NCBI RefSeq assembly: GCF_003143935.1
Contig: NZ_QFRX01000001.1
Location: 2,537,697-2,601,696 of the forward strand
Reading direction: 5' to 3'
Source of the DNA: Streptomyces sp. Act143
GTDB taxonomy: Bacteria; Actinomycetota; Actinomycetes; Streptomycetales; Streptomycetaceae
Length of the DNA stretch: 64,000 nt
The notes below the pieces were generated by a model. The model was not told where the DNA came from and did not search any database. It was given only the letters and a program-made list of their open reading frames with translations. The position numbers were made by a program, and so were the translations under genes. Every line of letters begins with the position of its first letter. Positions within the stretch are counted from its first letter, which is position 1. Of this stretch, positions 23,146-26,406 are shown piece by piece.

Positions 23146-23532
23146 ATGAACGACACGCCGCTGGACCGGCTCGGCGCCGGCAGCTACCTGCTGATCACCA
23201 GCTTCCGCAAGAACGGCACCGGGGTACCCACCCCGGTATGGGTGGTCCGGGACGGGGACGGCCTCGGGGTGTGGACGGTGGCGGACTCCTGGAAGGTCAA
23301 GCGCATCCGGGCCCGCGCCGATGTCCTCGTCGGCCCCTGCGACCTGCGCGGCAACCCCACCGGCGAGCAGGTCCCCGGCACCGCGGAGATCTGCGACCCC
23401 GCCACCAGCGCCCGCTACCGCAAGCTCATCGCCCGCAAGTACGGCGTCGTCGGGCGCCTGAGCCTGCTCGGCAGCCGACTGCGCCGCGGCACGGACGGCA
23501 CCGTGGGGATCCGGATCACGCTCGCCGACTGA
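23146..23532 (+). CDS. PPOX-class F420/flavin-dependent oxidoreductase
   Basis: A 128-aa split-barrel protein. It reads YLLITSFRKNGTGVPTPVWV, GVWTVADSWKVKRIRARADV and VLVGPCDLRGNPTGEQVPGT, the layout of the short PPOX-class (pyridoxamine-oxidase-like) proteins that bind F420 or FMN and reduce small substrates. Such proteins are numerous in actinobacteria. It forms a single-gene unit between two minus-strand genes; the 227 nt in front hold the divergent promoter area and nothing else that I can identify. Confidence 0.85.
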   Translation: MNDTPLDRLGAGSYLLITSFRKNGTGVPTPVWVVRDGDGLGVWTVADSWKVKRIRARADVLVGPCDLRGNPTGEQVPGTAEICDPATSARYRKLIARKYGVVGRLSLLGSRLRRGTDGTVGIRITLAD

Positions 23533-23666
23533 GGCTCGACCCGCGGACGCTCATCGGCGGGCGGCGGGAGGGCGCTCATCGGCTGACGGCGGGAGTGAAC
23601 CGGGGGGTTCTCAGGGTGTGGGACTGGAGCGGCGGGACGCCGATCGCAGTCCGCCGGCCTCGGCCG

Positions 23667-24080
23667 TCAGGTCCAGGCGCGGTAGGGCTCGTCGAGCAGC
23701 TGGAAGACCGGCTCGCCGCGAACGGGGTCCTTGGCCGTCGACAGCCGCACCCGGTCCCCGCTGTGGATACCGATGGGCGGGCCCATCACCCGGCCGCGCA
23801 CGACGAAGCCCTCGGCCATCTCGATCATCGACACATTGCGCGCGGCGGGCGTGTTGCGGTGCACGACACTGGAGTGCCGGACGGTCCCGACCCCCTCGCT
23901 GCGCTCCGTGCGCAGGTCGCTGCCCTGGCAGACCGGACACAGCAGCCGGTGGTACATGGCGGTGCCGCACCAGTTGCAGCGCTGGAAGACGATGGCGTTC
24001 TGGTCCGGGGCCGCGGGTTCGAGGACCGCCGCCGCGGAAGCGGATACCTGCGGAGCAACGCTTCCTGAGTAGTGGTACAC
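23667..24080 (-). CDS. DUF35 Zn-ribbon/OB-fold protein
   Basis: A 137-aa protein. A zinc ribbon with four cysteines (QRCNWCGTAMYHRLLCPVCQ) is followed by an OB-fold (GVGTVRHSSVVHRNTP, FVVRGRVMGPPIGIHSGDRV). DUF35 proteins are usually partners of thiolases or hydratases in acyl-CoA metabolism, supplying the acyl-CoA-binding lid. Here no thiolase gene is adjacent, which is unusual. The GTG start at 24080 is preceded by AGGGAG with 8 nt spacing. Two copies of the palindromic GGCACTC-type operator (24181 and 24203) lie in its promoter region, so the TetR regulator at 24247 probably controls it. Confidence 0.82.
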   Translation of the reverse strand: MYHYSGSVAPQVSASAAAVLEPAAPDQNAIVFQRCNWCGTAMYHRLLCPVCQGSDLRTERSEGVGTVRHSSVVHRNTPAARNVSMIEMAEGFVVRGRVMGPPIGIHSGDRVRLSTAKDPVRGEPVFQLLDEPYRAWT

Positions 24081-24180
24081 CTGGTCAACTCCCTGCGCTC
24101 GACCGGAATCCCCCGTGCGCGGGTCACCCGGGCACGGACGTGCGCGGCGCTCCGTGCCACCGTGCACATCCGCAGCGTAT

Positions 24181-24215
24181 GGCACTCAGTGTCATCCGTA
24201 AAGGCACTCGGTACC
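24181..24215. promoter_or_regulatory. Paired TetR-type operators before the DUF35 gene
   Basis: GGCACTCAGTGTC (24181-24193) and GGCACTCGGTACC (24203-24215) are imperfect versions, 22 nt apart, of the perfect palindrome GGCACTCAGTGCC that stands before the TetR gene at 25035-25047. The first copy matches it at 12 of 13 positions, and the TATGGCACTCAGTG context is shared. They lie 100-135 nt before the DUF35 start. Confidence 0.65.
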
Positions 24216-24246
24216 CTGAATTTTCGAACAGGCGGCCATCGGCGAG

Positions 24247-25002
24247 TCAGTCCTGTCCCGGATCGCGCTCCAGCGTCGCCTCGATCTCCTGGACCACCCG
24301 CCACAGCGGCGCCCCGCGGCGGGACACCAGCACCACGACGTCCTCGGCCGCGTCGGCGCTTCCGGGGCCGGCGGGCGCGGGTGCCGGACCGAAGGCGGCG
24401 TGGACGTAGCCGAGCGCGTGGTCCATCTCGGTGCCCACGTCGCCCTTGCCGTCCGAGCGCAGCCAGGACCGCAGCGCGTTGTTGTGTGCCGCCGCGACGG
24501 CCGCCGCGATCACATCGGCCTGGAGGGAGCCGTCGCGCCGCCCGGCGAGGCGACGGCGGAGGTACTCGGCGAACGCCCGCTCGTAGCGCCACACCACGGA
24601 CAGCTCGTAAGCGCGCAGGCCGGGCACCTTCTTGGTGAGGCGGTAGCGCTGCACGGAGAAGGTCGGGTTCTCGGTGTACATCCGCAGGACCAGCCGGACC
24701 GCCTCGCAGACCCGCAGCACGGGGTCGTCCGCGTCGTCGCCGGCGGCGAGGAAGTCGGTGACGTCGGCCAGGGAGCGTTCGTGGTCGGGGAAGACCACGT
24801 CCTCCTTGGAGGGGAAGTAGCGGAAGAACGACCGCCGGCCCACCCCGGCCAGCGCCACGATGTCGTCGACCGTGGTCTGCTCGTACCCCCGCTCCAGGAA
24901 CAACTGGAACGCCGCCGCGACCAGGGCGTCGCGCATGGGCGGCTTGGCGGCCGCCGTTTCCGTCTTCTCGCCGCGCCGGGGCGCCGCGCTGCTGGAGCTC
25001 AT
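24247..25002 (-). CDS. TetR-family transcriptional regulator
   Basis: A 251-aa protein with an N-terminal TetR DNA-binding domain (about 25-75): ALVAAAFQLFLERGYEQTTV, DDIVALAGVGRRSFFRYFPS, then KEDVVF. The C-terminal 170 residues are helical and form the ligand pocket and dimer interface. The start is the ATG at 25002; an in-frame extension upstream runs into the operators and is rejected. Perfect and near-perfect palindromes before this gene and before the DUF35 gene indicate autoregulation and control of that gene. The ligand is unknown; acyl-CoA compounds are a reasonable guess given DUF35 (inference). Confidence 0.9.
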   Translation of the reverse strand: MSSSSAAPRRGEKTETAAAKPPMRDALVAAAFQLFLERGYEQTTVDDIVALAGVGRRSFFRYFPSKEDVVFPDHERSLADVTDFLAAGDDADDPVLRVCEAVRLVLRMYTENPTFSVQRYRLTKKVPGLRAYELSVVWRYERAFAEYLRRRLAGRRDGSLQADVIAAAVAAAHNNALRSWLRSDGKGDVGTEMDHALGYVHAAFGPAPAPAGPGSADAAEDVVVLVSRRGAPLWRVVQEIEATLERDPGQD

Positions 25003-25034
25003 GGACGGGAACGTAGCACCGGTACGTCCTGTAT

Positions 25035-25071
25035 GGCACTCAGTGCCCTCCGGTCGGGGGACTGAGTGCAC
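25035..25071. promoter_or_regulatory. TetR autoregulatory operators
   Basis: GGCACTCAGTGCC (25035-25047) is a perfect 13-bp palindrome. GGACTGAGTGCAC (25059-25071) is a second, inverted imperfect copy 24 nt further on (its reverse strand reads GTGCACTCAGTCC), and a weaker third, CGACTGAATGCGCT, lies near 25086. They stand 33-97 nt before the TetR start at 25002. Confidence 0.7.
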
Positions 25072-25134
25072 TGCGCTGAGCGGTTCGACTGAATGCGCTC
25101 TGCGGTCCTCTGGTGTGGCCCGCCGGTGCGGTTC

Positions 25135-25173
25135 TCCGCTACGGCCCTCCGCTACGGCCCTCCGCTACGGCCC
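25135..25173 (+). repeat. Tandem 13-bp repeat, three copies
   Basis: Three perfect consecutive copies of TCCGCTACGGCCC (25135-25147, 25148-25160, 25161-25173) followed by a partial fourth. It lies in the non-coding interval between the TetR operators and the DeoR/LacI-type regulator's promoter. Confidence 0.9.
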
Positions 25174-25194
25174 TCCGTGGGGCCGTGTCGCTGT

Positions 25195-25225
25195 GTGATC
25201 GTATTGAACGGAAGTGATCGATACG
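25195..25225. promoter_or_regulatory. Operator-like repeats before the DeoR/LacI-type regulator
   Basis: GTGATCG occurs at 25195-25201 and 25214-25220 (19-nt period), the second extending to GTGATCGATACG. The word AGTGATCGAT recurs at 26412-26421 before the binding-protein gene, and GATCGATACG recurs (minus strand) at about 36302-36311 before the PL8 lyase gene. A shared regulator is suggested. Confidence 0.5.
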
Positions 25226-25311
25226 CTTGTGGGCGTAGAGTGAGCGCGTCCGGATCACGCTCCGCGTCGGCCCGGGGAACGTTCGACCAGGCCTCGCACC
25301 AGGGGGATTCC

Positions 25312-26406
25312 ATGCGACTGCATGTCGACCAGCGTCATGAGCGGGTGCTCGAACTCGTCCGGCAGCGCGGCAGCCTCCGGGTCGCCGAACTCGCCGCCGA
25401 ACTAGGGGTGTCCGCGGTCACCCTGCGGCGTGACGTGGAGGCGCTGGCCGCGCAGGGGCGGGTCCACCGGCTGCACGGGGCGGTGGTGTGGCCGGGGGAC
25501 CCGGCGGCCGAGACCCGGGCGCGGCCGGACCGTGCCGAGGGCGCCGTGATCGGAATGATCGTGCCGAACACCCAGAACCTCTTCGCGGACATCGTGCACG
25601 GAGCCCGGGAGGCCGCCGCCGCGCAGGGCGCCCGGCTGGTGCTGGGGGTGACCGGATATGTCGAGGCCGAGGACGCGGTGCAGGCCGAACACCTGGTCGC
25701 GGGCGGTGCGGAGGGGCTGATCGTGGCCCCCAGCTGGTTCGACGGCGTCCCCGTGGACGGCCAGGAGAAGTGGCTGCTGGAAAACGGTGTGCCCGCCGTC
25801 CTGGTCGAACGCCTGGCCCCGCCCGCCAACCCGGCCGCCGTACTGGACCGCGTCCGCACCGACCGCGCGCACGGGGCGGCCGTGGCGGTCAGCCACTTCG
25901 CCGCCCTCGGCCACCGCAAGGTGGCCGCGGTGCTCCAGGAGGGCCCGCACGCCGCCCAGATCACGGCGGGCTACCGGGCCGCGGTGGAGTCGCTGGGGCT
26001 CGACGTGGCGACGGGCGCGCCGACCGTGCGGGAGCACGGGGACTACGAGGCAAGCGTCGACTACCTGGTCGAGGCGGTGAAGAAGCGCGGCGTCACCGCG
26101 GCGCTCGTGCACAGCGACGCCGACGCCATCGTGCTCGTGCCCCGCCTCCAGGCCTGCGGTATCCGGGTGCCCGACGACCTCGCGCTGATCGTGTACGAGG
26201 ACGAGGTGGCCGGCCTCGCCGACGTGCCCCTCACCGCTGTCGCGCCGCCCAAGCGGGCGGTGGGGGAGCTCGCCGCGAAGCTGCTGCTCCAGCGGCTCGC
26301 AGAGCGGGCGAGCGGGGCGGCGGACCCGGCGCCGCGTCAACACCTGGACCTGCTCCCGGAGTTGAAGATCCGAGCGTCCTGCGGTGGACACCGTGCCGCG
26401 CGTTGA
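25312..26406 (+). CDS. DeoR-type HTH/LacI-type sensor transcriptional regulator
   Basis: A 364-aa hybrid regulator. The N-terminal 60 residues are a DeoR-like winged helix (RHERVLELVRQRGSLRVAEL, AAELGVSAVTLRRDVEALAA), joined to a periplasmic-binding-protein-like LacI sensor domain (AVIGMIVPNTQNLFADIVHG, AEGLIVAPSWFDGVPVDGQ, VSHFAALGHRKVAAVL, PDDLALIVYEDEVAGLADVP). This fusion is a known type controlling sugar operons. The ATG at 25312 is preceded by AGGGGGA. It lies directly upstream of the sugar importer operon on the same strand and probably controls it and itself. Confidence 0.88.
   Translation: MRLHVDQRHERVLELVRQRGSLRVAELAAELGVSAVTLRRDVEALAAQGRVHRLHGAVVWPGDPAAETRARPDRAEGAVIGMIVPNTQNLFADIVHGAREAAAAQGARLVLGVTGYVEAEDAVQAEHLVAGGAEGLIVAPSWFDGVPVDGQEKWLLENGVPAVLVERLAPPANPAAVLDRVRTDRAHGAAVAVSHFAALGHRKVAAVLQEGPHAAQITAGYRAAVESLGLDVATGAPTVREHGDYEASVDYLVEAVKKRGVTAALVHSDADAIVLVPRLQACGIRVPDDLALIVYEDEVAGLADVPLTAVAPPKRAVGELAAKLLLQRLAERASGAADPAPRQHLDLLPELKIRASCGGHRAAR

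Follow-up and report, generated by a model that had tools for sequence, protein, structure and literature searches.

In the 64,000-nt stretch of the Streptomyces sp. Act143 genome (9.6 Mb) analyzed here, hereafter the window, a gene for a TetR-family regulator lies upstream of a gene for a DUF35 protein, and palindromic sequences of one design stand before both. An earlier note, made from the sequence of the window, read this arrangement as a two-target regulon and expected that further GGCACTC sites would reveal a partner for the DUF35 protein. The locus raises the question of whether these sites are real operators and, if so, which genes they govern and which regulator reads them. We consider it fairly probable that the tetR gene (tetR1) and the DUF35 gene form a self-regulated operon within a Streptomyces-wide regulon of acetyl-CoA assimilation and PEP synthesis, with a paralogous protein, TetR_ccr, as its main regulator. 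The genes of such a regulon are relevant to how acyl-CoA precursors are supplied for polyketide antibiotics, and a defined operator with two candidate repressors would offer a handle for precursor engineering.

Operators at the tetR1–DUF35 locus

Both genes lie on the minus strand. Named here, as elsewhere, by Pfam and NCBIfam, tetR1 (24247-25002) encodes a 251-aa MftR-like regulator with TetR_N (58 bits) and the MftR C-terminal domain TetR_C_14 (41.3 bits), both above their cut-offs. The DUF35 gene (23667-24080) encodes a 137-aa protein of the zf-ChsH2 plus OB-fold type, with a GTG start after GGGAG. The likely starts, GTG at 24080 for DUF35 and ATG at 25002 for tetR1, were judged from the sequence; the mechanically listed long-ORF starts, 24185 and 25071, would extend the frames through the operators.

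A perfect copy of the palindrome, GGCACTCAGTGCC, occupies 25035-25047, with 32 nt separating it from the likely tetR1 ATG (25002-25000), and an inverted copy, TGCACTCAGTCCC (minus strand; 25058-25070), lies 23 bp upstream of it. Before DUF35, GGCACTCAGTGTC (24181-24193) matches at 12 of 13 letters and GGCACTCGGTACC (24203-24215) lies 22 bp upstream of it. The perfect and the 12/13 copies are as the earlier note described them; the further copies that it reported before DUF35 and, inverted, before tetR1 are likewise present, but each matches at 11/13 letters rather than 10/13. A possible third, weaker site, GGCGCTCCGTGCC (24146-24158), lies 35 bp from the first DUF35 operator, and a weak site at this offset is present in 61 of 109 related loci.

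Allowing up to two mismatches, with C or G at the center, five of the six sites in the window fall within 24146-25070, where the rate outside predicts 0.015, and 5000 rounds of single-base shuffling of the two gaps never reached the observed five. At up to three mismatches, the window as a whole holds no excess (35 sites found vs. 42 expected). The remaining doubt is removed by conservation in 110 related loci, comprising the best 80 of 383 TetR loci from named Streptomyces genomes and 30 loci from 61 genomes of the same genus. DUF35 follows tetR1 in 109 of these loci, of which 106 are distinct, three upstream sequences being common to both sets. Counted loosely (up to three of ten core letters off, with a background of ~2.5%), a second site recurs at 22-bp spacing in 97/109 DUF35 promoters (94/106 distinct) and at 23-bp spacing in 78/109 tetR1 promoters (75/106 distinct). 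The palindromic operators of tetR1 and DUF35 are confirmed as real and conserved, and the sharing of operators between the two genes, which the earlier note had proposed, extends to the related loci, at promoter position. At the one locus without DUF35 (L077, 1492-3454, in genome G055), tetR1 is divergent to a gene assigned by Pfam as an acyl-CoA dehydrogenase, and two operators lie between them.

The main DUF35 operator occupies the 17 nt between a TTTAC(G) box and a TAnnnT box, represented in the window by TTTACG (24197-24202) and TACGCT (24174-24179), both on the minus strand. TTTAC stands at the −35 place in 97/109 loci and TAnnnT at the −10 place in 107/109, with both boxes in 97/109. Scanning 23500-25400 with a strict sigma-70 consensus gave no promoters; it is by conservation that these boxes are taken as likely −35 and −10 elements. 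An operator filling the spacer would be the arrangement expected for a repressor that blocks RNA polymerase. TetR dimers may bind the operator pairs, which lie two helical turns apart, through a core of GGCAC-N3-GTGCC with TSA as the preferred center; at DUF35, one operator of the pair would fill the likely promoter spacer, and TetR1 would also regulate its own gene.

Recurrence of the operator across Streptomyces

The scan with up to two mismatches that the earlier note had recommended is near noise in a single genome: in the window genome it returned 347 matches on both strands vs. 283 for the reversed pattern. A further mismatch scan gave 324 vs. 298, and a relaxed-core scan 84 vs. 130. Within a single genome, plain counts of the motif exceed those of the reversed pattern slightly or not at all, and conservation between species is needed. 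Two sites were set aside by eye, a hairpin-like copy downstream of lipA in the window genome (L014) and a tandem repeat (L022). Also in the window genome, the site TGGCACTCAGTGCCT (L011, 1501-1515) stands before a TetR_C_11 regulator gene adjoining methylmalonyl-CoA mutase.

Between species, the pattern is clearer. The exact 14-mer TGGCACTCAGTGCC is present in 104 of 150 Streptomyces genomes; its reversed control occurs in 12, at 13 sites. Among the matches listed, 150 sites were read (30 loci from the match listing, 116 fetched loci, and L008, L010, L011, and L335) and classed by homologous genes within 1-1.5 kb of the site in any orientation, with promoters not mapped. Seven gene classes adjoin 135 of these listed sites: ppdk (44), tetR1/DUF35 (35), ccr with its own TetR (30), aceA (14), citrate synthase (10), aceB (1), and a methylmalonyl-CoA mutase/TetR locus (1). 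Of the 15 others, four adjoin a CoA-transferase family III gene, one adjoins PEP carboxylase, and one adjoins 3-hydroxyacyl-CoA dehydrogenase; the remaining nine are without explanation and were counted against the regulon reading. With perfect sites before or beside it at four loci (L039, L449, L465, and L468), the CoA-transferase family III gene is likely a further member.

A search that began from the genes, scoring the closest match to GGCACTSAGTGCC in roughly 400-500 nt of upstream sequence, recovered the same associations; this search and the census overlap in the genomes used, all of one genus, and their counts are not independent. The site occurs at up to one mismatch before ppdk in 35/40 cases and at up to two in 39/40; for ccr the corresponding counts are 30/39 and 38/39, the single miss lying at a contig edge. 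For aceA the count is 13/14 at up to one mismatch, the miss being a partial match. The malate synthase gene aceB has the exact core GGCAC-N3-GTGCC before it in 27 of the 30 best of 41 genomes. At these aceB loci (L366-L395), a second site is found further upstream, at a distance of 140-142 bp in 20/30 and of 151-163 bp in 5/30; the 140-142 bp spacing could suit DNA looping. Two gene classes were counted against the regulon reading: citrate synthase (22/39 at up to one mismatch, 25/39 at up to two) and thiolase, for which 6/30 orthologues have the site upstream at up to one mismatch. Sixty shuffled palindromes, applied to the first 134 loci, gave one mismatch in 0-0.4% and two mismatches in 1.5-3.5%, and paralogous genes, serving as internal controls, had the site at up to two mismatches in 0/6 cases for ccr and 0/13 for ppdk (0/19 in total). 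A two-target regulon is therefore too small a description, the operator being also found before ppdk, ccr, aceA, aceB, citrate synthase, and others; the expectation that further copies elsewhere in the genome would be informative was borne out. The same operator would thereby mark the ethylmalonyl-CoA pathway (ccr), the glyoxylate cycle (aceA and aceB), ppdk, and citrate synthase, and in some species the regulon may also take in thiolase and other genes.

At the threshold used, no aceA was found in the window genome, which is therefore probably dependent on the ethylmalonyl-CoA route. In another genome (G010, L318), no ccr was found at the threshold used; this genome keeps tetR_ccr and the operator GGCACGCAGTGCC, with an HpcH/HpaI (citrate-lyase-like) gene nearby.

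Dyad-symmetric sequences of this kind could in principle be transcription terminators or hairpins rather than operators, a reading that we regard as highly improbable. The palindrome at ppdk reaches a length of 21-25 bp in many species and the lipA-downstream copy resembles a hairpin, as such a reading would have it; yet the sites keep conserved distances upstream of genes, recur in pairs of fixed spacing, and lie between −35/−10-like boxes. At ccr, the second operator is again 22 bp away in 28/30 loci, and TAnnnT follows in 28/30. A terminator scan of 23500-25400 placed its only two matches within tetR1, away from the operators.

Apparently, a large regulon governed by this operator has not previously been described. 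Searches of the open-licence literature listed neither a paper with this operator or regulon nor a Streptomyces regulator that links ccr and ppdk with the glyoxylate genes, an absence that is not proof. For an alphaproteobacterium, the accessible part of one report describes as enigmatic how the ethylmalonyl-CoA pathway is upregulated (PMC10370305).

Two TetR paralogues as candidate readers of the site

The protein encoded upstream of ccr, TetR_ccr, is a paralogue of TetR1 (about 40-48% identical) and is weakly MftR-like by Pfam, with TetR_C_14 at 20.0 bits, below the cut-off of 22.7. A tetR_ccr-type match is found in 59/61 genomes, and in 36 of the 38 genomes compared no more than 4 kb separates a gene of this type from ccr; tetR1, at no less than 58% identity, is found in 34/61. 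We take SCO6474 to be the ccr-side TetR of Streptomyces coelicolor. In the literature searched, this tag was met in one report only, which gives its expression as unchanged in its own experiment, as far as the accessible part goes (PMC7324645).

Sequence comparison suggests that TetR_ccr is probably the main regulator and the window TetR1 an accessory paralogue. Genomes without tetR1 keep the site at ppdk (12/15 at up to one mismatch) and at ccr (13/13 at up to two), and therefore TetR1 cannot be its sole reader. The same persistence would be expected if TetR1 controlled itself and DUF35 only, the identical sites elsewhere belonging to TetR_ccr alone with no cross-talk, and ppdk sites are indeed no better where tetR1 is present (23/25 vs. 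12/15, p = 0.35). We nonetheless think this narrower reading unlikely, as both TetRs share the same operator core and the same recognition-helix residues: R56, R57, F59, F60, and R61 are invariant in 26 TetR1 sequences and one TetR_ccr. Sites at ccr (24/25 vs. 6/13, p = 0.0009) and citrate synthase (18/24 vs. 4/15, p = 0.007) are also nearer consensus where tetR1 is present, which hints at shared use of the sites, though common ancestry may explain it instead. On the preferred reading, the near-universal TetR_ccr would most likely be the main regulator, and TetR1 would read the same sites where it is present.

Both proteins invite comparison with MftR. The structural model of TetR1 (mean pLDDT 86.1) has as its closest folds SCO0337 (2dg7) and Mycobacterium tuberculosis MftR (8x0a), and the recognition helix is similar, Rhodococcus MftR (2rae) having ARRTLFRYF there. 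According to the accessible part of the report, the operator that M. smegmatis MftR protects spans 27 bp and contains the palindrome T-N2-GGCA-N5-TGCC-N2-A, and long-chain acyl-CoA releases the protein (PMC8728441). The window operator beside tetR1, GGCA-CTCAG-TGCC, has the same half-sites and the same N5 spacing as that published palindrome (PMC8728441). Neither TetR reaches the score of an MftR equivalog, however: TetR1 scores 101.8 bits and TetR_ccr 91.8 bits against TIGR03968, whose cut-off is 224.9. The putative targets here also differ, being acetyl-CoA assimilation genes. In a scan of five other proteins encoded in the window, no product of a mycofactocin gene was recognized. MftR His68, described in the accessible text as needed for oleoyl-CoA binding (PMC8728441), aligns in our own reading with Ser77 of TetR1; with this replacement, the ligand of TetR1 may therefore differ from that of MftR. 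By analogy, an acyl-CoA is probably the ligand of TetR1 and TetR_ccr, and the repressors are probably released when acyl-CoA builds up during growth on acetate or on fatty acids.

The likeness to MftR bears on a further alternative, that another regulator, such as the RamB-like XRE protein beside aceA, reads the palindrome and the TetR genes are merely its targets. A RamB-like gene, so named from its sequence, lies beside aceA around the site in three of the four aceA loci listed, and RamB of Paracoccus, a protein of the ScfR family and not a TetR, controls acetyl-CoA assimilation, including the glyoxylate cycle, according to the accessible part of the report (PMC10370305). RamB-like genes were noticed at aceA only, however, whereas the site has dyad symmetry, adjoins both of the paralogous TetR genes, and agrees with the MftR operator defined by footprinting, as given in the accessible text (PMC8728441); we consider the alternative quite improbable. 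Other known TetR regulators share features with the pair favored here. AccR of S. avermitilis is a Streptomyces TetR repressor of short-chain acyl-CoA metabolism; in the accessible part of a review, its motif is GTTAA-N6-TTAAC and its targets are accD1A1-hmgL-fadE4, echA8, echA9, and fadE2 (PMC10933834). As an identity for the window TetR it was rejected on motif, the operator here being GGCAC-N3-GTGCC. SCO3201 of S. coelicolor is a TetR with a GGCA/TGCC palindrome, TGGCAGATTCTGCCA, but its half-sites are separated by N7, not N5, and it has other targets in the accessible portion of the report (PMC7324645). CcrR of Methylobacterium extorquens, known here from the title of its report, is a TetR-family protein acting on an ethylmalonyl-CoA pathway gene; it differs in being, by that title, an activator, and in coming from an alphaproteobacterium.

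Published expression data are of mixed bearing. From its chromosomal position, we take SCO2494 to be the operator-bearing type of ppdk in S. coelicolor, and SCO0208 is probably the operator-less type. In the accessible part of one report, ppdk2 SCO2494 was 30-fold up on Tween, the other PPDK, SCO0208, was 11-fold up too, and isocitrate lyase (ICL) and both malate synthases were unchanged between Tween and glucose (PMC7494193). Expression of the ethylmalonyl-CoA pathway is described in another, likewise partly accessible, as generally acetate-induced (PMC4606968). The S. coelicolor Tween data, to the extent that the report is accessible, are a partial support and a partial contradiction of the regulon.

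A broader proposal can be put forward tentatively: one operator code may decide throughout Streptomyces whether acetyl-CoA is burned or assimilated. Two paralogous MftR-like TetRs, one universal on the ccr side and one accessory on the DUF35 side, would respond to different acyl-CoAs and compete for shared operator pairs at ccr, aceA, aceB, citrate synthase, and ppdk. On this view the DUF35 protein would be a regulated helper of this metabolic state, not a stray thiolase subunit.

The DUF35 protein and its neighbors

The DUF35 protein has a zf-ChsH2 match of 32.2 bits and an OB_ChsH2_C match of 20.7 bits, the latter below its cut-off of 27.1, and its zinc-ribbon cysteines, C35, C38, C48, and C51, are invariant in 30 homologues. 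Its structural model (mean pLDDT 79.5) matches the DUF35 folds 6htj, 6ok1, and 6esq by Foldseek. Sulfolobus Trf, titled translation recovery factor, ranks best, followed by ChsH2, with the archaeal thiolase/HMG-CoA synthase subunit among the top matches; all three combine a zinc ribbon and an OB fold, as the window protein does.

As the earlier note had observed, no thiolase accompanies the gene: its neighbors include no partner gene of the thiolase/aldolase kind. Five other zf-ChsH2 genes are present in the window genome; three adjoin an ORF with a thiolase Pfam match above the cut-off, one lies beside a sub-cut-off thiolase match, and the fifth case is unclear. The hope that GGCACTC sites elsewhere would reveal the partner of the window DUF35 was not realized. 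The window genome has one operator-bearing thiolase gene (L019); it is acetyl-CoA acetyltransferase-like and was rejected as the partner, the site being kept in only the 6/30 orthologues noted above.

Two further genes near the locus may be recorded. One, at 25312-26406 of the window, encodes a regulator in which a DeoR-type HTH is joined to a LacI-type sugar-binding domain, and it adjoins sugar ABC transporter-like genes. At 23146-23532 lies a gene for a PPOX-class F420-dependent oxidoreductase (TIGR03666, 154.9 bits), a homologue of which is also found near DUF35 in four other loci (L034, L036, L045, and L051).
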